64,000 nucleotides of DNA from an uncultured Verrucomicrobiota bacterium. GTDB lineage: Bacteria; Verrucomicrobiota; Verrucomicrobiia; Opitutales; Opitutaceae. How positions within the stretch are numbered: the stretch's first letter is position 1; each line of letters opens with the position of its first letter. Below are positions 1,877 to 52,962 of this stretch, piece by piece. The stretch covers positions 1 through 64,000 of the forward strand of contig CAIUGM010000006.1 of the NCBI GenBank assembly GCA_903898675.1. Reading direction: 5' to 3'. The notes below the pieces were generated by a model. It was not told the origin of the DNA. It saw only the letters and a list, made by a program, of their open reading frames with translations, and made no database searches. Position numbers and translations under genes: made by a program.

Positions 1877-3229
1877 TCACTCCGCGAGGCGGGGCAGCGT
1901 GAGGGTGAACGTGGTTCCAGCCGGGCCGGTTGAAACGAGCGCCAACTCGGCGCCGATCTGGCGGGCGAGCAGGTGACTGATGGCGAGGCCCAGGCCCGAG
2001 CCACCGGGCCGGCTGCTGTAACCGGGTTGGAAGAGATGGGCGCGCACGGGCGCCGGGATGCCGCCGCCCGTGTCCTGCACGGTCAGCGTGATGACCCCGG
2101 CGTTCTCCCGCAGCGCAACCACGACGCGCTGGCCGGGGTCGACGGCCATGATCGCATTCTGCACGAGGTTGTTTGCGATGAGGCAGAGGAGGCTGCCGCG
2201 GTGGCTGTCGACGACGGCGGCGAAACCCTCGTTCACTTCCAGCCCGACGCTTTTCTCCGCGGCGGCGGGCTGGTTGCGGTCGCGGATGGTGGCCGCGAGT
2301 TCCCGGCCGGTGAGTTCGTAATGCGCGCCGGCGCGGGCATCGCCGAGCAGGGCGACGGTTTCCTGGATCATCGTCTGGAGCCGCGCGGTGTAACCGGCGG
2401 CACTCTCCCAGGCTGGGCTGCCCGTCTCGCGGCGGGCCACCACGGCCCGCAGCCCTTCCACCGAGCCCTGCAGGCCGTGGATGAGGTGCGAGGTGATCTG
2501 CCCGACGGCGGAGGCCTTGGCGGAGAGCGTGAGCTCGAAATTCGCGCGCCGCAGCCGCTCGTTGCGCTCGGCCACGATTCGCTGCGCACGTTGCACGCTG
2601 AAGGCCGCGCCGGTCAGGACCAGCGTGATCAGGACCGCACCGACGCCGAGCGTGACGGCGGTCTGACGGTTGATGCGCCCGTCGATGCGGGCAAGCTCGA
2701 GGGACAGCGGTCGCGCGTCGATGTAGTACCGCACGTAGCCCCGGGCGCTTGTGGCCTCAACCCCGGGCAGTGGGAGCAGCACCTCGAGCACCGGCTGCTG
2801 TTCCCGGGACGCGCCCGCGAAATGCTGGTCGAGGGGAAACGCCGGGTGGTAGCGGGTCAGCGGGCCACCACCCTGCAGCCGCAGGAAGTCATCGGTCGGC
2901 AGCTCGACAAAGAGCTGGCTGGCGGGCACGGCCTCGACCGTGTTGCCGTCGCGATCAAACACGGCGACAGCGAGCATGCCCTTCTGCCGCGCACTGCTGA
3001 GGAGCGTGGTCAGCGGGGCGGGCTGGTTCGCGCCGCCGGCCGCGTCGGCCTCGGCCAGCTGCTGCAGGGCCATCGGGTAAAGCACGGCGGCGTCGCGCTC
3101 GATTATTTTCAGGTGGATTTCGCGCTGCAGGTCGGTGCGGAGCCAGCCGACCATGGCCGAGAAGATAGCGATCAGCAGCACACCCGTGCCCACGGCGGCG
3201 GCGACTTGGCTGAGGCGGGGGCGGGGCAT
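1877..3229 (-). CDS. Sensor histidine kinase
   Basis: N-terminal TM, periplasmic region, second TM; H-box-like SHLIHGLQG; HATPase motifs NNLVQNA, DTGGGIP, GGSGLGLAIS. Confidence 0.88.
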   Translation of the reverse strand: MPRPRLSQVAAAVGTGVLLIAIFSAMVGWLRTDLQREIHLKIIERDAAVLYPMALQQLAEADAAGGANQPAPLTTLLSSARQKGMLAVAVFDRDGNTVEAVPASQLFVELPTDDFLRLQGGGPLTRYHPAFPLDQHFAGASREQQPVLEVLLPLPGVEATSARGYVRYYIDARPLSLELARIDGRINRQTAVTLGVGAVLITLVLTGAAFSVQRAQRIVAERNERLRRANFELTLSAKASAVGQITSHLIHGLQGSVEGLRAVVARRETGSPAWESAAGYTARLQTMIQETVALLGDARAGAHYELTGRELAATIRDRNQPAAAEKSVGLEVNEGFAAVVDSHRGSLLCLIANNLVQNAIMAVDPGQRVVVALRENAGVITLTVQDTGGGIPAPVRAHLFQPGYSSRPGGSGLGLAISHLLARQIGAELALVSTGPAGTTFTLTLPRLAE

Positions 3230-3253: not shown

Positions 3254-4897
3254 TCACGGCGCTGCCACGCCCGCCGGCAGGGGCAGGGCGAGTTGCTCGA
3301 TCGCGGCGGAGAAGAGCAGGCGGCGCTGCTCCGGCGACAACCCGGGTAGCAGGAGCGCGACCTGGTAGTCGCGGTACTTGTCCCAGATCTCCTGCTGCTG
3401 CCGGGCGTTCTCGAAATCCTTCAGCAGGTCGTTGATCGACTTCAGGTCCGCCGGCCGGTTGGTCGAGCGCACGTAGTCGGCGAGATCCTCGCGGATGCCG
3501 GCCAGTTCGCGATTGAGCCGGTCAAGCAGGGCGCTTTGCCGGCTGATGAACTCCTCGGTGGAAACCTGGAGGTTGTGCGGACGCACGACGGTCTGGGCCG
3601 AGCTGTCATTTACCCACGAGGTCGTCGCACCGCCTGCATCCGCCGGCGCGGATACCGGTGTCGTCGCCGGGGCGGCAAGCATCGCGCGCAGCGTCTGCAA
3701 CGCCTCGAGCTTGTGGGCGCGGTAGGCGGCGATGCGCGCCATCAGGCCCGGGGGCAGGGCCGGGGCCGGGGGCAGCCCGGGCGGGTTCGGCTGGGCGGCC
3801 AGGCCGCGGCGGATGTCCTCCGCCTGTTCCTCGAGGAGGGCCAGGCGGCCCGCCTGCGCGGCAGCCAGCTGGCGGCACGCGACCCGGCGCCGGCCGGTGC
3901 CGGCCTCGGTATCGCGCAGCAGGGTGCGCAGCTCGAGTTTGAGCTGTGCCTTGTTCGCCAGGTAGGTGCTGATTTTTTCCTCCAACGGCGCGGGCAGGTT
4001 CATCCCGAGGCGGAGGCGGGCGGGTTCGGGGGAGAAGTGCAGCAGCCAGCCGGCCGCGATGCTCCCGGCGGGGGGCACACCCGAATCCGTCCCGGTGCCG
4101 ACTTCCGCGGCGGTTTCGCAGAGGAGGCCGCGCTGCCCGTCCGAGAGTTCATCCTCGAAGAAGGCGGCCGCGCGGAGCGCCGCGGCCTCGCGTCGCAGGC
4201 TCGGCGGCCGGGGCAGTTCCGCCTGGCTGTCCGCCCAGGCTTCATCCTCCGCGGGCGAACCGAACAGCGTGTTGGGCCGCAGCTCGGACTTGATTTTGGC
4301 CGCCGCGGCCTCGAGCGCGCTGAGCGCGGGGCCTTGTTGGGCGGCGAAGGCGGCGAGCTGCGGTGCCCGCTCGGCCGGGTCGCCCGCCGGCAGGCTGGCG
4401 AGCTTCGCGCGCAGTTCGTCCTGCAACCGGGTCCGCTCGGCCACATAGGCGTCGAGCCGGGCCCGCACCGACTTGGGCAGGTCGTTCGCGGCCAGCCGGG
4501 CGGCGAGTTGCGGATAAAACCAGTCGCTGACGAAGGGCGCGAGCCCCGGCGGCGCCGCTGCGCCGGGACCCGTGGGCCCGAGCAGGGAGATGTCCGCGTC
4601 CAGCGGCGGCGGCATGGGCGGGAAGAAAAAAATATGCGGCTCCACCAGCCGCAGCGCGGTGTTGTAGTAATGGTTCGACGACTCGTTGTTGAAACGGATC
4701 TGGTCGAAGCGTTCGCGACTGGCCAGCGGATCGCCGTCCGACCGGCCCTGCACCGGCGCCGCGGGCGTGGTGGCCGCCGGGGTGGCGGGTTGCGCCGTGG
4801 CGGGAGCCGGGAACAAGCTGGTGGCCAGGATCAGCGTGCCAGCCAGGAGAAGCGGCCAGCCGCGGCGGGAATATCCAGTGGGTCGGTCAGCGCGCAT
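3254..4897 (-). CDS. Uncharacterised secreted protein
   Basis: Long ORF between kinase and regulator; signal peptide-like N-terminus ending ATAQPA; Ala/Pro/Glu-rich helical body. Confidence 0.7.
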   Translation of the reverse strand: MRADRPTGYSRRGWPLLLAGTLILATSLFPAPATAQPATPAATTPAAPVQGRSDGDPLASRERFDQIRFNNESSNHYYNTALRLVEPHIFFFPPMPPPLDADISLLGPTGPGAAAPPGLAPFVSDWFYPQLAARLAANDLPKSVRARLDAYVAERTRLQDELRAKLASLPAGDPAERAPQLAAFAAQQGPALSALEAAAAKIKSELRPNTLFGSPAEDEAWADSQAELPRPPSLRREAAALRAAAFFEDELSDGQRGLLCETAAEVGTGTDSGVPPAGSIAAGWLLHFSPEPARLRLGMNLPAPLEEKISTYLANKAQLKLELRTLLRDTEAGTGRRRVACRQLAAAQAGRLALLEEQAEDIRRGLAAQPNPPGLPPAPALPPGLMARIAAYRAHKLEALQTLRAMLAAPATTPVSAPADAGGATTSWVNDSSAQTVVRPHNLQVSTEEFISRQSALLDRLNRELAGIREDLADYVRSTNRPADLKSINDLLKDFENARQQQEIWDKYRDYQVALLLPGLSPEQRRLLFSAAIEQLALPLPAGVAAP

Positions 4898-4909: not shown

Positions 4910-6309
<1,400 letters not shown>

Positions 6310-6427
6310 CACCGCAATGCGAGCGATGCGCGACCGGGCTTCAACATAATTCTCCCGCGCTAGTCCGCGGGCCCCCGCGGCCGGCTGGTGGCCTGCCCCC
6401 AGCCGGATATTTCCCGCGCCATGGAAA

Positions 6428-6443
6428 TGGTTGCGTGCAACCA
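6428..6443. promoter_or_regulatory. Candidate enhancer (UAS) palindrome
   Basis: TGGTTGC-gt-GCAACCA, 7-bp perfect arms, about 87 bp upstream of the sigma-54 promoter candidate. Confidence 0.4.
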
Positions 6444-6529
6444 ACGCGCCGGCGGGCGGCGCCGCGCAAAAATTGTCGCGACGGTTGCTAGCTGCATCAG
6501 CTGAACGCTTTGGGTCCGGACGGAAACAC

Positions 6530-6545
6530 TGGCACGCCGCGTGCA
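6530..6545 (+). promoter_or_regulatory. Candidate sigma-54 (-24/-12) promoter
   Basis: TGGCACGCCGCGTGCA: GG and GC separated by 10 nt, close to consensus TGGCACG-N4-TTGCW; between an NtrC-type regulator and the TonB2-like operon. Confidence 0.6.
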
Positions 6546-6884
6546 GGATGTTACGTCCGCGCGGCCCGGCCCGGCGCAAAAAAATCCCCACCCCGAATGT
6601 TTTCCACCCGCGAACGGTTGCAGCGCCCGGTGTCCGTGCGGCGCTGCGTCTCCTGGTTTGGTTCCGCGCGGAGCGGCGCCGTGTCATATCGCCGGCGGGC
6701 ACCGGCGGGAAAGCACGACCTGCCGGTGGTCGCGGGCCGGCCGTTTTTGTTCGCCAATATTTCATGTTTTCCGTCTGCTGGAGCTGGACTGTTTACCCCT
6801 CATGCCCGCTCACCCCGCTTCCTGCCCTGTACCGGCTGTCCCCGCGGCCGGTACGCCAAAGAAGACCCGCTGACTTTGCCCACC

Positions 6885-7679
6885 ATGAACGTTTCCCTGC
6901 TTCGGAATAATCATCACCTGCTCCTGCTGGCGCTGTTGGGCGCCTGTTCACTTCGCGGGGCCGAGTCGGACCCGGTCGAGGCCGTCGAGCAGGCGGCCAC
7001 GCAGTGGGTGAAGACCCGCGCGGAGACCTCGCGCCTCGCGACGGAATGGACGCAGCAGCAGCAGCTGTTGGAATCCATGGTGAACGGGCTGACCGAGCGC
7101 GCCAAGAATCTCGAAGATAAACGCGACTACCTGGAGGCCAAGACCGCGAAGGATCGCGACGAGGTCGCCAAGCTGGTCGCGGCGAACCAGGCCTCGACCG
7201 CGACGATGGAAACCATCGAGGCGCACCTACAGGCGCTCGACGCCAAGCTGCTGCAGTTGCGTCCGTCGCTGCCGCCGCGGTTGTCGGCCGCGCTCGATCT
7301 GCCGTACCGGAGCCTCGCGGCGAAGGAGCTGACGGTGAGCGAACGGATGCAGCTTTCGATGACGGTCCTGAACCGTTGCATCCAGTTCAACCGCGGCGTC
7401 ACGTGCGAGGAGGAGGTCCTGAACCCGGCCGGCACGGGGAATGCGCAGCTACTGGATGTCATCTACTGGGGCCTGAGCCACGCCTACGCGCTCGACCGCT
7501 CGTCGGGCAACACCTGGTTCGGCTCGCCCGGGCCGGCGGGCTGGCAATGGGAACCGCTGCCGGACGGGGCCAAGCACGTCGGCCAGCTTATCGCCATCTA
7601 TCGCGGCAAGGGCGAACCCGACTTCGTTGCCATCCCGGCCCGGCTGAAGAGCGCGGCGCTTGAACCGGCGGGGAAATAA
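6885..7679 (+). CDS. DUF3450-like periplasmic coiled-coil protein of a TonB2-type system
   Basis: Signal peptide (LLLLALLGACSLRGAES), coiled coil, and genetic order DUF3450-TtpC-ExbB-ExbD-TonB-TPR. Confidence 0.75.
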   Translation: MNVSLLRNNHHLLLLALLGACSLRGAESDPVEAVEQAATQWVKTRAETSRLATEWTQQQQLLESMVNGLTERAKNLEDKRDYLEAKTAKDRDEVAKLVAANQASTATMETIEAHLQALDAKLLQLRPSLPPRLSAALDLPYRSLAAKELTVSERMQLSMTVLNRCIQFNRGVTCEEEVLNPAGTGNAQLLDVIYWGLSHAYALDRSSGNTWFGSPGPAGWQWEPLPDGAKHVGQLIAIYRGKGEPDFVAIPARLKSAALEPAGK

Positions 7680-7685
7680 GCACCG

Positions 7686-9112
7686 ATGAAAAACTCCCTT
7701 TTCTCCACTGTCGCGGTGCTGCTCCTTGGCGCGCTCGCCCTGCGCGGCGCCGAATCCGTCGACGATGCGCTGAAGCGCGCGGCCCTCGACTATGGCCAGC
7801 GGCTCACATCGGCCAACGCCGAGCTCACGCAGACCCGCGACAAGATCGCCCGCGAGAAGGCCCCGCTGCTCAAGGCGCTGCGCGCCGCCGAGGACCGGAT
7901 CATCGCCGCCGAGTCGGCCAACCTGCAGCTCGAGACCGCCGCGGAGAAGTCGGCGGAAACCCACCGCCAGCTCGGCAAGGATGCCGATGCGCTGCGGAAG
8001 AATGAGAATTACCTGAACACCCTCGCGCGCGACAGCTTCAGTGCTTTCGACGAAGGTGTGCTGCCCGGCGAGCGGACGTTTCTCCCGGTGAAATATGCCG
8101 GACTGCGCGACGGCTTCGCGAGTCCCGCGAAGTCCGGCGCCACCCAGGGCACCACGGAAACCGCCGACCTGCTCCTGGAACGCGTGCAGCTGGCGCTCGG
8201 GGGTTTCAAGGTGGCGGGCAGCTCGCTCGTCGAGGGCGGCAGCCAGCTCGTGCCCGGCACCTTCGCCTTCGTGGGGCCCGAGACATTTTTCCGCGCCGAC
8301 CAGGGCGGGGCGGCCGGCACCGTGCGGACGCGCGAAGGTTCCGGCCAGGCCGTCACCTACGTGCTGCCCGAATGGAAACCGACGGCGGCCGAGGCGTTTT
8401 TTCAAGGGAAGATGGGCGAGATCCCCGCGGATGCGTCCGCCGGGAAAGCCCTGCGCCTGAAGGAAACGAAGGGCACGCTCCTGCAGCACATCAACAAGGG
8501 CGGCGTGGTTTCCTATGCCATCATCTGCGTCGGGCTCGTCTCGCTTTTGCTCATCCTGCAGAAGCTGCGCGACGCCGCCCAGCTCGCCGTCGACGCGCCT
8601 GCGACCATGCAGCGCTGCCTGGAGACGATCGCCAGCGGCACCACCGCCGAGGCGGCGAAGGCGGTCGCCGCCCTCAAGCTCCCGGCGCGCGAGGTGTACA
8701 CGACCGGCCTGCGCTACCTGGATGAATCGCGGGAAATCCTCGAGGAGCGGCTCACGGCCGTGCTGTTGCGCCAGCGCCTGCATTACGAGCGCTGGCTGCC
8801 GCTGCTGGCGGTCATCGCCACCGCGGCGCCGCTGATGGGCCTGCTCGGCACCGTCACGGGCATGGTGCGCACGTTCAGCCTGATCACGGTTTTCGGCACC
8901 GGCAACGCCGGCAAGCTCGCGAGCGGCATCTCCGAGGTGCTGGTGGCGACGGAGCTCGGTCTGCTCGTCGCGATCCCGACGCTCGTGGCCCACGGCTTCC
9001 TGTCGCAGCGCATCCAGAAAAGTTTGTCGCTGCTCGAGCGGTACGCGCTGGAATTCGTGACCGCCGCCCAGTCGGGCAAACCGGGCGAAGCCGCCAAGGA
9101 GCCGATCGTCGC

Positions 9113-9116
<4 letters not shown>
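7686..9116 (+). CDS. MotA/TolQ/ExbB-family proton channel with periplasmic coiled-coil N-terminus (TtpC-like)
   Basis: Signal peptide, coiled coil, then C-terminal TolQ/ExbB segment (ATAAPLMGLLGTVTGMVRTF...SGISEVLVATELGLLVAIPTLVAH). Confidence 0.85.
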
Positions 9117-9594
<478 letters not shown>

Positions 9595-9598
<4 letters not shown>

Positions 9599-10008
9599 TC
9601 GGTCGCAGCCACGGGCCCAGCCGCTTTGAGACCACGCACGTCGACATGGTGCCAATGGTGGACTGCATCATGGTGCTCCTGATCTTTCTCATGATCAGCA
9701 GCGCCTTCGTGAACGATCCCGGCATCGAGGTGCAGAAGCCCGACGTCGGCGGCACCGCGATCAACGAGCAGAACTCCCTGCTGATCGCCATTGCGGCGGA
9801 CAACCGCATCTTTTTCGACGGCCAGCAGATCAGCACCGACCAGGTGGCCGCGCTCGTGAAGCAGGCCGCCATCGGCCGGTCGCCGGCCCTGATCATCCGG
9901 GCCGACCGCGCCAGCAACCACGGGGTGTTCGCCGAGGTGTACGCCGAGGCCAAGCGCGCCGGCATCCAGCACGTGCAGTTTGCCACCACCCACGCGGAGG
10001 CCCCCTGA
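9595..10008 (+). CDS. exbD: ExbD/TolR-family biopolymer transport protein
   Basis: VDMVPMVDCIMVLLIFLMISSAF signature TM; overlap with exbB. Confidence 0.88.
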
Positions 10009-10009
10009 C

Positions 10010-10756
10010 ATGAACGCCCGTCCCGCCACCGCGCCGCTCTGGACCCTGTCGTCGGAAATCGACGAGGGCGGCCGGGGCCGCACGGCATTGAGCCTGCTGC
10101 TGGGCGCGGGTTTCACCCTCGGTCTTTTCCTGGGCATCGCGCATTATGAGAAGGCCGCGCCGGCGGGTCCGCCGCGCGATCTCGACGACCTGCGGGTCGC
10201 CATCATGCCGGTAACGCCACCGCCCGTGCCGGTCACGCCGACCGAGACGATCCCCGACGTGGTGCCGATGCTGGGCTTTGAGTATTCGCCGGCCGACAGC
10301 CCGGTGAGCCTCGCTGTCAGCCCGCCGGACCTGTCGCAGCTGCTGCCGGAGGACCTCTCGAAGGCCCCGCCGGTCGGCGCGCAATTCAACCTGCGGCTCG
10401 CGGACTTCAAGCCGCAGATGAGCTTTGTGCAGGATTCCCAGTATGTCTACCAGCGCAGCGAGGTTGACCAGGCCCCGGCCGTGCTGGAGCGGCCCGGCCC
10501 GTCGGTGTCCAGCCGCGTGCGCGACAACGCCTCGGTGCTCCAGGTGCGGCTGCTGCTCGTCATCGACCCCGCCGGTGCCGCCGGCAACATCCGCCTGACC
10601 AAGTCCTCCGGCAACGCGGAGTTCGACCAGCTGATGGTCGCGTACATCAAGGAATGGGTTTTCTCCCCCGCCATGAAGGGCGGCAAGAAGGTCCGCTGCC
10701 TGATCGAGCAGGGCATCACGATCCAGTGGCACGCCGGCTCCCCCTTTGAATCATGA
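10010..10756 (+). CDS. TonB-like energy transducer
   Basis: Single N-terminal TM, Pro-rich stretch (PVTPPPVPVTPTETIPDVVP), C-terminal TonB-type fold (LLLVIDPAGAAGNIRLTKSSGNAEFDQLMVAYIKEWVFSPAMKGGKKV). Confidence 0.82.
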   Translation: MNARPATAPLWTLSSEIDEGGRGRTALSLLLGAGFTLGLFLGIAHYEKAAPAGPPRDLDDLRVAIMPVTPPPVPVTPTETIPDVVPMLGFEYSPADSPVSLAVSPPDLSQLLPEDLSKAPPVGAQFNLRLADFKPQMSFVQDSQYVYQRSEVDQAPAVLERPGPSVSSRVRDNASVLQVRLLLVIDPAGAAGNIRLTKSSGNAEFDQLMVAYIKEWVFSPAMKGGKKVRCLIEQGITIQWHAGSPFES

Positions 10757-12177
10757 AATCACCCCGTCTTTTTCTTTTGCTTGGACTCACGCTCGCCCCC
10801 GCGCTCCTGCTCCGGGCCAACACGCTGGATCCGCTTGAACAGCTGCGTGCGGAATCCGCCCAGCGCGAAAGCATCGCCGCGGCCCGCGCGGAAAGCCTGG
10901 GCCTGGGCAAGCCCGGCCAGCTCGACCCGAAGCGGATCATCAACCAGTCGAACAGCTTCATGAAGGAGCGCGAACCGGAGATGTCCGCCGAGGAATACGC
11001 CCTGTACGAAAAGGTCGTCACAAGCTTGTCGGCCAACCCGGAGTTTGCGCTGAAGCTGCTCGAGGCGATGATGACGGAGAAGGAACAGCCGAGCCCGGCG
11101 TTCGAGTTCATCCTCGGCAACGTCTACTATTCGGCCGGCCAGCCGGACAAGGCGGAGGCCCGTTACCGCAGCGCGGTGAAGCGTTACCCGGCGTTCATCC
11201 GCGCGTGGACCAACCTCGGCGTGCTTTATTACACGTCGGACAAGTACACCGACGCGATCCCCTGTTTCTCGCAGGCCGTGACGCTCGGCGACCACGATCC
11301 CGCCACGTTTGGCCTGCTCGGCTACTGCCTCGAGCGCTCCGGCAACGCGGTCGGCGCGGAGATGTCCTACATGCAGGCACTCGCCGGCAACCCGGAGAAC
11401 ACCGACTGGATGGAGGGACTGCTGCGGGTTTATGTGCAGAGCAAGCAGTACGGCCGCGCCGAGTCGCTGGTCCGCACGCTGATCAAGCTGCGCCCGGCCA
11501 AGGCCGAGTTCTGGCTCGCGCACGCCAACATCCTGCTCGCGCAGAACCGCAAGCTGGAGGCCATCGTGCTGCTCGAGGCGTCGGCGGGCGCGGGCATCGC
11601 CGGCCCGACCGAGCTGAACCTGCTGGGGGATCTCTACGCTGAGCAGGGGTTCAACCCGGAGGCCGCGGCCATCTACCAGCAGATCATGGCGGCCACGCCG
11701 GACCTCGGGGAGCGCAAGCTGCTGCATTTCGCGCAGGTGCTCATCGCCGCCGGCAAATTGCCTCAGGCCGAGGACGTGCTGGGCCGGTTGCCGGCCGCGC
11801 TGACGCCGGCGGGCCGCCTGAGTTATCTGCAGACCAGGTCCGATCTCCTGGCCGCGCGCAAGCAGTGGCCGGAAGCGCGCAAGCTGCTCCAGGAATTGCT
11901 CCAGGCGCAGCCGCTCAACGGCCGGGCGCTGCTCAGCCTCGGCCACGCCTACGCGGCCGAGGACGATCTCATCCATGCCGCCTTCGCGTTCGACGCCGCC
12001 TACCAGGTGGCCGATTCCACCTACCGGGCCAGCCTCGAGCTCGCCAACCTCGAGCTGAAGAGCCGCCATTACGAGAAGTGCGTGGAGTACCTGCAGAAAG
12101 CCCTGAGCCTCGAAAAATCCGACGCCGTCGAGGATTACCTCACCCGCGTCAAAACCCTGGTCGCCAAGAGCGGCTGA
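10753..12177 (+). CDS. TPR-repeat protein of TonB2-like operon
   Basis: Multiple tetratricopeptide repeats, signal peptide, ATGA overlap with tonB-like gene. Confidence 0.82.
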   Translation: MKSPRLFLLLGLTLAPALLLRANTLDPLEQLRAESAQRESIAAARAESLGLGKPGQLDPKRIINQSNSFMKEREPEMSAEEYALYEKVVTSLSANPEFALKLLEAMMTEKEQPSPAFEFILGNVYYSAGQPDKAEARYRSAVKRYPAFIRAWTNLGVLYYTSDKYTDAIPCFSQAVTLGDHDPATFGLLGYCLERSGNAVGAEMSYMQALAGNPENTDWMEGLLRVYVQSKQYGRAESLVRTLIKLRPAKAEFWLAHANILLAQNRKLEAIVLLEASAGAGIAGPTELNLLGDLYAEQGFNPEAAAIYQQIMAATPDLGERKLLHFAQVLIAAGKLPQAEDVLGRLPAALTPAGRLSYLQTRSDLLAARKQWPEARKLLQELLQAQPLNGRALLSLGHAYAAEDDLIHAAFAFDAAYQVADSTYRASLELANLELKSRHYEKCVEYLQKALSLEKSDAVEDYLTRVKTLVAKSG

Positions 12178-12185
12178 ATCCTGCC

Positions 12186-13436
12186 ATGAAATTCTTTACC
12201 CCTTCCGGTCGGCCCACCGCCTTTTTGTTCGCCCGGCTCCTGCTGCCGGTCTGCCTTGCCGCCGCGCTGGCGCCCGCCCGCGCCGATGAGACCGAGGCCA
12301 CCGCGCCCGAGCCCAAGACGCACACGCTGTTCATGGGCGCGAATTTTTCCGTGGAGCAGAACAAGGAGCTCTACCCGGTCCAGAATGTCGTGGGCAGCGC
12401 GTTCGTGATCAAAGTCAAGGGCAAGGAGGTCAAGGTGCCGATGAACTTCGGCGTCTCCAAGTTCAAGATCGACCCCGCGCTCAAGCTCACGGAAACCTCC
12501 GCCACCGTCACCAATTTAAAGGGCGAGCGCGCCTACACGCTCGGCAACGATCCCACGGTCAGGTTCCAGCGCGGCCTCGCGGACTCGCAGCTGCAATATT
12601 CCGACAGCGTCGCCCAGCAGCACCAGGCCAATGCCGGGCTTCATTTCGGCGACGCGGCGACGGCCGTGAGCAACGCGGCGGCGAAGGCGGATTCCCACGC
12701 CCCGACGACCACGTCGCTCGCCACCGCCGTCAACCAGCAGAACGCGCAGGCCAATCTCCAGAGCATCAGCAACGGGGCCGGGTCGCGTTTTCAGGAGAAG
12801 GGCTCACCGCTGGACGGCGAGGGGATGTTCGATGCGATCGATGTCTCGTTTGAGGTGGCGTCGAAAAAACCGCTGAACCAGCCGTACCTCGTGATCATGG
12901 CGCGTTACCACGCCCCCGAGGACAAGCCCGGCCAGGTCAGCAACTGGGTCTACGCGCGGGAACTGCCCGCCATCGGCCGCGAGCCCGTGAAGGTCCAGTT
13001 CCTGCAGGGCGGGTTTCCGCAGGGCTACACCATGCAGGATTTCCAGGTCCACCTCTACAACCAGGGCGAGGAGATCGCGACGACGGTCGCGCCGCAGCGC
13101 GTGGCGCTGACGCGCAACGAGGCCTACCTGTACATGGTGAGCGACTACGTTGGCTCGCACAAGGGCGCCACGCTGCCCGCGGCGCCGATGATGGGCGCGC
13201 TGCCGGCCGACCTGCAGGCGCGGCTCGCGCAGGGTGAGTTCAAGCAGACCTTCTACGTCCGGGTCGGCAAGGACGGCAAGGCCGGCGCGGCATTTCTCGA
13301 TGCAGCCGGCGCGCAGGCCGTCGACGACGCCTACCTGCAGGCTGTGCTCCGCAATATCCGTTTCAAGCCGGCGCTCGACAAGGGCAAGCCGGTCGAGGGC
13401 GTCGCCGCCTTCAAGCTCAGTGAGCTGCTGATGTAG
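12186..13436 (+). CDS. Uncharacterised secreted protein, family A copy 1, TonB-CTD-like C-terminus
   Basis: Signal peptide (…APARADE); paralogous along its length to the next CDS; C-terminus VRVGKDGKAGAAFLDAAGAQAVDDAYLQAVLRNIRFKPALDKGKPVEGVAAFKLSEL. Confidence 0.75.
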   Translation: MKFFTPSGRPTAFLFARLLLPVCLAAALAPARADETEATAPEPKTHTLFMGANFSVEQNKELYPVQNVVGSAFVIKVKGKEVKVPMNFGVSKFKIDPALKLTETSATVTNLKGERAYTLGNDPTVRFQRGLADSQLQYSDSVAQQHQANAGLHFGDAATAVSNAAAKADSHAPTTTSLATAVNQQNAQANLQSISNGAGSRFQEKGSPLDGEGMFDAIDVSFEVASKKPLNQPYLVIMARYHAPEDKPGQVSNWVYARELPAIGREPVKVQFLQGGFPQGYTMQDFQVHLYNQGEEIATTVAPQRVALTRNEAYLYMVSDYVGSHKGATLPAAPMMGALPADLQARLAQGEFKQTFYVRVGKDGKAGAAFLDAAGAQAVDDAYLQAVLRNIRFKPALDKGKPVEGVAAFKLSELLM

Positions 13437-13501
13437 TGCGCGGCGGTTCGCCGCCTTGGTTTCCGTGTGTCAGGAAAGTTTCGCCCCAGCCGGTCATCCC
13501 C

Positions 13502-14746
13502 ATGAAAACATACCCCCAGGTTTCATTCCGCCCGAAGGTGTCGCGCGTGTTTGTTCTGCTTCCGGTCCTCCTCCTTGCCGTCACCGCGTTGCGGGCGGTG
13601 CCCGATACCCCGCCGGCCGCCCCGGTCCAGCCGTTCACGCTGTTCCTCGGGGCGGATTTCGCCATCGAACAGGATAACGTCCTGTACCGTGTGCAGGATG
13701 TCGTGGGCGGTTCCTTTGTCATCAAGGTCAAGGGCCAGGACGTCCTCGTGCCGATGGACCGCGGGCTGCAGAAGTTCAAGGTCACGCCGGTGCTCAAGCT
13801 GACGGAGTCATCCGCCGTCGTGGCCAAGTTTACCGGCGAGCGGGCCTACACCCTCGCCAACGATCCCGCGGTGCAGGCGCAGCGGGCGATGGCGCAGTCG
13901 CAGATGCAGTACTCCGACAGCCTGGCCCAGCAGCACCAGGTCACCGCGGCGTTCCAGTCCCTCACGGCCCAGGGCGCGATCATCGCGGCCACGCCCAAGG
14001 ATACGCACAGCACGGACCAGACGCGGGCGCTGGTCACGTCGATCAACCAGTCGAACGCGCAACTGGCCTTGCAGGGCATCGCGAACGGCCCGGGCTCGAA
14101 TTACAATACGAGCAGCTCCGATTCTACCGAGGGAGCCTTCGACGCGATGAACGTGGCGTTTGAGCTGACCGCGGACAAGGCGCTGAACGAACCGTTTGTG
14201 GTGATCATCGCCCAGTACCGTCCGCCGGGCGGCAAGCCGGACCAGGTGGGCAACTGGATCTACGCGCGCGCGCTGGAGCCGATCGGCCACAAGGCGCGGA
14301 AGGTCAGTGTCGAGCAGGGCGGGTTTCCCCCGGGCTTCGAACTCGTCGACCTGCAGGTGCACCTCTACAACCGCGGCGTGGAGGTCGCGACGAACATCGC
14401 GCCAAAGCGCGTGGCCCTGACCCGCGAGGAGGCGCAGCAGCATGTCGTGGACGAGTATGTCGCCAGCCACCCCGGCGTCACGCTGCCGGCGGCGCCCGCC
14501 ATGGGCAAGCTGCCCGCCGATGTCCGGACGCGGCTGGCCAGCGGCCAGTTGCAACAGACATATTTCATCAAGGTCGGGCGTGACGGCAAGGTGGCCGCGG
14601 CCTTCGCCGACGAGGCCTGCACGCAAAAGGTCGACGATCCGTATCTCCAGTCGCTGGTGCAGAACATCCGGTTCAAGCCCGCCCTCGACAACGGCAATCC
14701 CGTCGAGGCCGTCGCCCCGCTGAAAATCAGCCAGCTGTTGATCTGA
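13502..14746 (+). CDS. Uncharacterised secreted protein, family A copy 2
   Basis: Shared blocks with copy 1: IKVKG.(E/D)V.VPM, QYSDS(V/L)AQQHQ, GGFP.G(Y/F)...VHLYN.G.E.AT..AP.RVALTR.EA. Confidence 0.75.
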   Translation: MKTYPQVSFRPKVSRVFVLLPVLLLAVTALRAVPDTPPAAPVQPFTLFLGADFAIEQDNVLYRVQDVVGGSFVIKVKGQDVLVPMDRGLQKFKVTPVLKLTESSAVVAKFTGERAYTLANDPAVQAQRAMAQSQMQYSDSLAQQHQVTAAFQSLTAQGAIIAATPKDTHSTDQTRALVTSINQSNAQLALQGIANGPGSNYNTSSSDSTEGAFDAMNVAFELTADKALNEPFVVIIAQYRPPGGKPDQVGNWIYARALEPIGHKARKVSVEQGGFPPGFELVDLQVHLYNRGVEVATNIAPKRVALTREEAQQHVVDEYVASHPGVTLPAAPAMGKLPADVRTRLASGQLQQTYFIKVGRDGKVAAAFADEACTQKVDDPYLQSLVQNIRFKPALDNGNPVEAVAPLKISQLLI

Positions 14747-14881: not shown

Positions 14882-15901
14882 ATGACAACCACCTTTAACT
14901 CACTGCGGGACCCCCGGTCCCGTTCCCGGCGCCTGCCTGCGCTCGCTGCCGTTGCGCTGCTGCTGGTGTTTCAACCCTGCGCCCGCGCCGACGCCACCAA
15001 TGAAATTGTCGCGGTCAGCTCGCGGGTCAGCGAGGACTACGCACGCACCAAGCTCCCGGACGGGAAGTTCGCGCCCGAGACGTTTGCGTTCGGCGAGGGC
15101 GGCAAGTGGGACGGCGGCATGCACGACCTCACGATCGACAAGCTCAAGTTTCTCGACGTCGCGAAGGTGGTCGCCGGGCCGCTGGCGACGCAGGGCTACC
15201 TGCCCACCAAGGTGCCGAACGCGGCCAAGCTGCTGATCATGGTCTACTGGGGTACGACGGCCGGCACGAGCGATACCGGCGACTTGAACACGACGCAGGG
15301 CCTGGGCGTGGGCAACCAGCACCTGAACCAGGCCCGGCAGCACATGGCCAACACGAAGACCACGGCGGATGCCGCGATGCGGACCGCGGGCCGCGGGGCC
15401 GCGCCGGCAGTTGACATAAACGACAAGCTGATGGCGCTGGTGGAGGAGCAGAACGCCCTCGCGGAGGTCGATGCCTCCATGACCGTGACGCAGGCCGAGA
15501 ACGAGCAGCGCGACAAGCTCGACCTGCTTAATGCGCGCATGCTGGGCTACAATTCCACCGGCATGATCGGGACGGACTTCGGCCGGAACAACGACTTCAG
15601 CGCGCTCGGGCAGCGGCGCCGCGACCTGATCGAGGAGGTGCAGGACAACCGCTACTTCGTGGTGCTGATGGCGTACGACTTCCAATTGCTCTGGAAAGAG
15701 CGGAAGCACAAGCTGCTCTGGGAATCCCGTTTCAGCGTGCGGGAGCACGGCAACGACTTTGCCGAGATCCTGCCCGGGATGACGAAGTATGCCTCGCAGT
15801 TCTTCGGCCAGGACAGCCACGGGTTGCTGCGCAAGCCGCTGCCCGAGGGGCACGTCACGCTGGAGGAGCTGCAGATCCTCGAAGTGGTGCCCGACAAGTG
15901 A
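14882..15901 (+). CDS. Uncharacterised secreted protein, family B copy 1
   Basis: Signal peptide (…CARADA); paralogous to next CDS (FGEGG.W/HF..GMHDLTIDKLKFLDVAKVV.GPL). Confidence 0.75.
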   Translation: MTTTFNSLRDPRSRSRRLPALAAVALLLVFQPCARADATNEIVAVSSRVSEDYARTKLPDGKFAPETFAFGEGGKWDGGMHDLTIDKLKFLDVAKVVAGPLATQGYLPTKVPNAAKLLIMVYWGTTAGTSDTGDLNTTQGLGVGNQHLNQARQHMANTKTTADAAMRTAGRGAAPAVDINDKLMALVEEQNALAEVDASMTVTQAENEQRDKLDLLNARMLGYNSTGMIGTDFGRNNDFSALGQRRRDLIEEVQDNRYFVVLMAYDFQLLWKERKHKLLWESRFSVREHGNDFAEILPGMTKYASQFFGQDSHGLLRKPLPEGHVTLEELQILEVVPDK

Positions 15902-15941
15902 GGCGGAGTGCGCCGCGCAAATTCTGAAAACCAAACCGACG

Positions 15942-17051
15942 ATGAACGCAAAAATACCAACGCAAGTCATGTTGTCCGCGCGGATCCGCGCGTTGCCCGC
16001 CGCCCTCTGCTGGCTGGCGGGATTGGGGTGGTGGGCCGGCGCTCCCGTGGCCGTACGGGCAGACGAGCCGGGCGAGGTGGTGGCCGTGTCGGCGAAGACC
16101 ACTCCCACGTACAAGCGGGCCAAGCTGCCCGACGGCTCCTTCCGGCCGGAGGCCTACACGTTTGGCGAGGGCGGCCATTTCAGCGGGCCCATGCGCGACC
16201 TCACGATCGACAAGCTCCAGTTCCTCGATGTCGCGAAGGTCATGGTCGGGCCGCTGGCCGAGCGCCAGTACCTGCCGTCCAAGGACCAGAAGGAGATCAA
16301 GCTGCTGGTCATGGTGTACTGGGGCACGACGGCCGGGGCCGGGGGCGCCGCGGGTACGATTGCAGCGCAGAATCTCGACGCCACGAGCCACGCCCACGAG
16401 GTGGCCCGGCAGGATTATGCGCAAATGGTGGCGGCGCGGGCCGCCCTGCCGATCATCGCGCCGAACGGACAGAAAGGGTCGTCCAGTGGGGTGGCCAGTG
16501 GCCGGCAGGCGTTGAATCCGACCAATAGCGCGAACTGGGGCATGGTGGATGCCCCGCTGGAACTCCTGGCCAAGGATCCCGAATTGCTGGGGGCCAAGTT
16601 GGAGGTGATCCGGGCGCAGGCCGCGCTGGATTCAGCCCTGACGGTATCGACGGCGGAGAACCGCGAGCGGGACCGCGAAACCCTGGAGAAGGCCCGGCTG
16701 CTCGGGTACGACGCGGCGTTGAGCCAGACCGACAACCTGGAATTCACCGCGCGGGGTATCCGCCGCCGCGACCTGCTCGATGAGCTCGAGGACGGCCGCT
16801 ACTATGTGGTGCTGATGGCCTACGATTTTCAGACCCTCATGAAGGAGAAAAAGCACCAGCTGCTCTGGGAGACGCGCTTTAGCGTCCGCGAACGCGGCGT
16901 CGATTTCAGCAAGGAGCTGGCGGCGATGACGGAGAAGGCCTCGCGGTACTTCGGCGAAGACAGTCACGGCCTGGTCCGGAAAAAGCTGCCGGAAGGGAAT
17001 GTCGTCCTCGGTCCGCTGGAGATTGGCGCGGTGGTGCCGGAAAAGAAATAG
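15942..17051 (+). CDS. Uncharacterised secreted protein, family B copy 2
   Basis: Shares YFGEDSHGL, YYVVLMAYDFQ and LLWE(S/T)RFSVRE blocks with copy 1. Confidence 0.75.
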   Translation: MNAKIPTQVMLSARIRALPAALCWLAGLGWWAGAPVAVRADEPGEVVAVSAKTTPTYKRAKLPDGSFRPEAYTFGEGGHFSGPMRDLTIDKLQFLDVAKVMVGPLAERQYLPSKDQKEIKLLVMVYWGTTAGAGGAAGTIAAQNLDATSHAHEVARQDYAQMVAARAALPIIAPNGQKGSSSGVASGRQALNPTNSANWGMVDAPLELLAKDPELLGAKLEVIRAQAALDSALTVSTAENRERDRETLEKARLLGYDAALSQTDNLEFTARGIRRRDLLDELEDGRYYVVLMAYDFQTLMKEKKHQLLWETRFSVRERGVDFSKELAAMTEKASRYFGEDSHGLVRKKLPEGNVVLGPLEIGAVVPEKK

Positions 17052-52864: not shown

Positions 52865-52962
52865 GGTTGCGGTAAGCGATAGGTGCGGAGTGAAAAGCTT
52901 AAAGCCTAAAGCGCGAAGCGGCCCGTCTTCCCCTTCGCCACGTGGCATGCGTTCTGCATAAA

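Follow-up and report, generated by a model that had tools for sequence, protein, structure and literature searches.

A TonB2-like operon, encoding a DUF3450 protein, two ExbB-type proteins, ExbD, TonB and a TPR protein, is very probably transcribed from a sigma-54 promoter under the control of an NtrC-type regulator encoded divergently beside it, which would act from two upstream enhancers (UAS1 and UAS2; Table 1). We base this on the DNA sequence and on its comparison with related genomes. The window (the whole 64-kb stretch of DNA analysed) is the start of an 89-kb contig (C6) of a 3.52-Mb genome in 40 contigs. A single, intact rpoN is present there, its frame open over 489 codons and its product carrying the RpoN box ARRTVAKYRE, and the plug domain of TonB-dependent receptors occurs 16 times. 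TonB/ExbBD energisers are usually regarded as iron-regulated, through Fur. What emerges here with good support is an ordinary mechanism with an unexpected target, together with an undescribed sensor module and an apparent regulon of secreted proteins.

Table 1. Genes and predicted regulatory sites of the locus (window coordinates)
Feature	Coordinates	Strand	Remarks
Membrane histidine kinase (HATPase_c)	1877..3229	-	Presumed partner of the regulator
Secreted all-helical protein, no known family	3254..4897	-	Always between the regulator and kinase genes
Response regulator, C-terminal part	4910..5509	-	In the shifted frame; remainder of AAA+, the lid and a Fis-type HTH
Response regulator, N-terminal part	5503..6309	-	Receiver domain and first half of AAA+ to GAFTDA; frame lost near 5602
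Distal enhancer UAS1, predicted	6386..6401	.	TGGTGGCCTGCCCCCA, degenerate in the window; 42 bp upstream of UAS2
Proximal enhancer UAS2, predicted	6428..6443	.	Palindrome TGGTTGCgtGCAACCA, TGGTTGC-gt-GCAACCA; centre 94 bp upstream of the -24 T
TTA box position	6509..6511	+	Window sequence TTT; 19-21 bp before the -24 T
Sigma-54 (-24/-12) promoter, predicted	6530..6545	+	TGGCACGCCGCGTGCA; start predicted at about 6555-6557
DUF3450 protein (TtpB-like)	6885..7679	+	First gene of the operon
TtpC-like long ExbB	7686..9116	+	Periplasmic N-terminal part plus MotA/TolQ/ExbB domain
ExbB	9113..9598	+	
ExbD	9595..10008	+	
TonB-family protein	9980..10756	+	
TPR protein (TtpD-like)	10753..12177	+	
Two paralogous secreted proteins, no Pfam family	12180..14746	+	ORF 12180-13436; second about 13496-14746
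Two further paralogous secreted proteins, no Pfam family	14882..17051	+	14882-15901 and about 15942-17051; co-directional with the operon, shared transcript hypothetical

The sequence-only reading had picked out a near-consensus sigma-54 site from its GG and GC dinucleotides, and reading the sequence at these coordinates bears this out: GG is at 6531-6532 and GC at 6543-6544, 10 nt apart, within TGGCACGCCGCGTGCA, the sole site in the window with no more than one mismatch to TGGCACNNNNNTTGCW (up to three mismatches, there are 196 further matches, not above chance). Its score of 15.4, obtained with a matrix that is our own approximation of the published consensus, is the highest in the window; the runner-up (15.2, at 52943) was dropped, being at an ORF start and outside the set of good two-enhancer promoters described below. 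The -12 half is GTGC, not TTGC, and the window copy forms a near-perfect inverted repeat (dyad GCACGC-c-GCGTGC). Might it be a dyad for some other regulator, and not a sigma-54 promoter? This is barely credible: the dyad is lost in relatives (TGGCACAAAGCCTGCA, TGGCACGGACTTTGCA, TGGCACATTCCATGCG), while TGG...GC at the sigma-54 spacing is invariant, and one relative (G056) has the full TTGC consensus. Transcription from the predicted sigma-54 promoter would give an operon leader of about 330 nt, in which an Rfam search found no element. A terminator-like hairpin with a T run lies within this leader (6722-6741, + strand) and may be an attenuator or a chance occurrence, three such hairpins having been found against 1.0 expected.

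The palindrome that had been recognised at enhancer distance upstream of this site is exact (UAS2), and its 14-mer core is found once in the whole genome; looser forms carry no meaning, since with up to three mismatches there are seven matches in the window against 3.3 expected. In every operon promoter the centre of UAS2 lies 93-96 bp upstream of the T of the -24 element, whereas its distance from the regulator start varies by about 40 bp among loci, which indicates that the palindrome is part of the operon promoter. A second, weaker enhancer (TGGTTGCCTACnnCCA-like in relatives) is present 42-43 bp upstream of UAS2, or about four helical turns, in most operon promoters. These sites are dyads at a constrained upstream distance that are conserved with the regulator, as expected of bEBP enhancers. 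As the palindrome lies between two divergent genes, it could be supposed to serve only for autoregulation or repression of the regulator, with an unrelated promoter driving the operon, and one genome lacking a DUF3450 orthologue (G148; L237, at G148:C26) has indeed kept the palindrome and not the -24/-12 site, so that a second role retains some plausibility. Autoregulation as the palindrome's only role is nevertheless highly improbable, given the fixed spacing just described, the recurrence of the enhancer-promoter pair before other genes far from the regulator gene (see below), and the finding of no sigma-70-like sites in 6300-6900 in a simple scan with an E. coli-type consensus.

How general is the association of promoter and regulator? 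We looked for DUF3450 orthologues in 150 genomes from the same bacterial family and re-oriented the loci before scanning. Conservation of the GG/GC pair in relatives that keep the locus had been proposed as a check on the sequence-only reading, and the outcome favours it. TGGCAC-N6-TGCA occurs on the correct strand in all seven DUF3450 loci with an adjoining regulator, and is missing from all 14 orthologous operons that lack one. The addition of G206 (from the same genus; its contig stops before the operon), G217 and G218 brought the regulator-adjacent loci to ten, and the pattern TGGCA[CT]-N6-TGCA with the correctly spaced palindrome was found in 10/10 loci whose divergent neighbour is an orthologue of the regulator, whereas the promoter pattern, and with it the pair of sites, was found in 0/14 of the DUF3450/Exb/TonB operons lacking it (exact P = 5e-7, with loci treated as independent). 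The ten loci are not ten independent events, since nine of the ten regulators fall in one clade (joined by that of G148). The regulator of G056 is elsewhere in the tree, and its locus has the same architecture. When the ten intergenic regions were dinucleotide-shuffled, a mean of 0.0175 regions contained the promoter pattern (maximum 1). Intergenic DNA outside these sites aligns poorly and dS exceeds 1 between the window regulator and its same-genus counterpart, so conservation of the sites is best explained by selection. The promoter/enhancer arrangement was not found beside about 20 paralogues of the regulator at other loci, and a scan of named genomes gave only regulators of 49% identity or less (the nearest from a Verrucomicrobia MAG, at 49%), none of them beside a DUF3450 operon. 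Sister regulators (about 60-75% identical) are encoded at other loci (L226-L250, e.g. G060:C40, G142:C310 and G074:C16), with a divergent region that does not have this promoter, and some of them are beside genes of the 14882 type.

The same pair of sites is re-used in relatives. A loose spaced-pair pattern run over 252 genomes gave mostly chance matches, of which we retained only those that also had a distal enhancer and, independently, the left half of the palindrome. A scan of all the DNA compared, with 107 sigma-54-like sites, separated into about 20 good two-enhancer promoters and a chance background. The distal enhancer is present at most regulon sites although it lay outside the search patterns, and so provides independent support. 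In the window's own genome, a strict search found only the 6428/6530 pair. In relatives, the pair is found upstream of the module's genes for the secreted protein and the kinase (strong in G086, G016, G125 and G206; weaker in G072, G131 and G218), from which these genes are predicted to be autoregulated. It also precedes a paralogue of the 12180/13436 type in G016 and G217, genes for secreted NHL/YVTN beta-propeller proteins with Ig domains (twice in G072, once in G218), and a gene for a TPR membrane protein in G131. Homologues of the 12180/13436 pair with their own copy of the promoter were seen elsewhere in relatives (L078, L135). For the 12180 protein itself, the predicted fold (pLDDT 77) had a best Foldseek E value of 1.8e-3, with a TM score of 0.14 over the query.

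One conserved promoter element is additional to the classical sigma-54 architecture. The second T of the TTA box is kept in 20 of 21 promoters, representing several genera, some 44 bp before the predicted start, and the A at -41 is kept in 17 of the 21; the box is absent only in G056. IHF was considered as its ligand and rejected, as the box does not match WATCAANNNNTTR when correctly spaced (judged by eye). The window genome has one gene of the HU/IHF family.

The divergent gene had been read as an AAA+ activator of the sigma-54 type, and this stands as regards its domains, which are NtrC-type with both halves present, but not as regards an intact reading frame. In the window assembly the gene is not a single continuous ORF: compared with the intact regulator from the same genus, it has a one-base deletion directly after GAFTDA (5595-5610, - strand). 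The regulators of relatives are intact, and one of them (L085) comprises a receiver, an AAA+ domain (Walker A GETGTGK) and a Fis-type HTH. The sigma-54 contact loop is GAFTDA, not GAFTGA, in the window and most relatives, and GAFTSA in one; GAFTDA is listed as an activity-preserving variant of GAFTGA (PMC4641369). With dN/dS of about 0.11 and about 0.13, the two halves of the gene are under equally strong constraint, and the frameshift is thus either an error of sequencing or a loss that happened very recently. If the latter, the window locus would be a relic of an architecture that is genuine in the lineage, its regulator a recent pseudogene and its switch dead or decaying. The degenerate UAS1 and TTA box of the window, as well as the deletion itself, fit such a history, and so does the interval of just 13 bp from the regulator stop to the start of the secreted-protein gene, because of which the autoregulatory promoter seen in relatives is missing here. 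We regard decay as unlikely, though by no means negligible, in view of the constraint on both halves, the perfect UAS2 palindrome and the intact -24/-12 site; moreover, isolated one-base gaps often arise as assembly errors where the DNA is GC-rich. Since the ORF is frameshifted in the assembly, the switch would be functional in the window genome only if the missing base reflects a sequencing error or the break is bypassed in some other way. Thus, of the direct control of the operon that had been predicted, the sites, their spacing and their presence with the regulator, their re-use in relatives and the intact RpoN all speak in favour, and against it stand the broken regulator frame, GAFTDA in place of GAFTGA, the GTGC -12 half, the degenerate UAS1 and TTA box of the window, the leader of about 330 nt with its hairpin, and the single clade that holds nine of the ten regulators.

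How might such a switch work? We infer a phosphorelay, set off by some signal, in which the co-encoded membrane histidine kinase would phosphorylate the regulator, the secreted helical protein probably modulating the kinase. The phosphorylated regulator would bind the UAS enhancers and, by way of a DNA loop, contact sigma-54 RNA polymerase, which it would remodel with ATP, so switching on the DUF3450-ExbB-ExbB-ExbD-TonB-TPR operon from the predicted start. Across the loci compared, the regulator, secreted protein and kinase genes are present or absent together as a whole unit, and the secreted protein is a candidate third sensor component. It has no match in Pfam or NCBIfam, and its predicted fold (all-helical, pLDDT 63) matched no PDB entry at E<=0.001.

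In their general design these elements resemble classical NtrC-family systems, with a -24/-12 promoter, paired palindromic enhancers (with centres here at 94 and 136 bp upstream of the -24 element) and an adjoining kinase and REC-AAA+-Fis regulator. They differ in having a TonB2-like energiser operon as target, in the enhancer sequence TGGTTGC-N2-GCAACCA, in the rigidity of the spacing, in the additional TTA box, and in GAFTDA replacing GAFTGA. By analogy, the trio of kinase, exported protein and regulator would work most like the QseE-QseG-QseF (GlrK/GlrR) system of E. coli, in which an exported partner controls the kinase (PMC6075780): in both, kinase, exported partner and sigma-54 regulator are co-encoded, multiple enhancers lie beside the module, and targets are envelope-related. 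Yet it falls outside that family, because the gene order is different (regulator-secreted protein-kinase), because the exported partner has no Cys in its N-terminal signal region and hence no lipobox (that of QseEGF being an outer-membrane lipoprotein), because the enhancer differs from the QseEGF consensus (TGT-N12-ACA; PMC6075780), and because the regulator scored 257.9 bits with the curated GlrR/QseF model, far below its cut-off of 763. Moreover, qseEGF is not autoregulated and has glmY and rpoE as targets (PMC6075780), whereas autoregulation is predicted in relatives of the present organism and the target is an Exb/TonB operon. PrsK/PrsR of the PEP-CTERM/exosortase system, as far as described in the available part of the source (PMC1569441), similarly combines a sigma-54-type regulator with an envelope-related TPR protein, but the genes are different, and TIGR02915, TIGR02916 and TIGR02917 match weakly, all far below their curated cut-offs.

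The target operon, in turn, has the order of the Vibrio TonB2 operon, ttpB2-ttpC2-exbB2-exbD2-tonB2-ttpD2 (PMC6957404), the order of DUF3450, TtpC-like long ExbB, ExbB, ExbD, TonB and TPR genes being identical. The Vibrio operon has a predicted Fur box and a -35/-10 promoter and responds to iron (PMC6957404), whereas we predict sigma-54 transcription under a two-component module dedicated to the operon, and the simple consensus scan of 6300-6900 showed no promoter of the sigma-70 type. The sequence-only reading knew of no such control for TonB2 systems. For the DUF3450/TtpC-type operon this holds, in that we found no description of its control by sigma-54 in the literature searched (in which few subscription papers were covered). 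It does not extend to TonB genes at large, as these (COG0810) were predicted with a matrix to be enriched for sigma-54 control in Flavobacteriia, a prediction that its authors call unconfirmed and that concerns another phylum; the available part of that report names no activator, enhancer or operon of this kind (PMC12316311).

Comparative sequence here equips a TonB energiser with its own sensor module, with a sigma-54 switch that depends on an activator and with an apparent regulon of uncharacterised secreted proteins, which points to some role other than iron uptake, and the enhancer/promoter pair offers a handle for finding further members of the system. As the regulon seems to comprise the proton-driven TonB2-like energiser, proteins of the 12180/13436 type, beta-propeller/Ig surface proteins and a TPR membrane protein, the Ton system may conceivably serve in the export or assembly of surface proteins. 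This reading, in which an envelope-sensing three-component sigma-54 switch commits the Ton system to surface-protein export or assembly and not to iron uptake, and an architectural factor at the TTA box fixes the promoter geometry, is a speculation that we consider rather unlikely to be right.

Finally, two sites that came up in the search for regulon members (G072:C48:74550 and G131:C116:38871; loci L082 and L084) were set aside as belonging to a different sigma-54 system, the palindrome being absent and the kinase/regulator pair a different one. At these loci, a conserved sigma-54-like site (CCTTTCCCGCAACCGG...TGGCACACC) precedes an efflux-type operon that is adjoined by this other NtrC-type pair.
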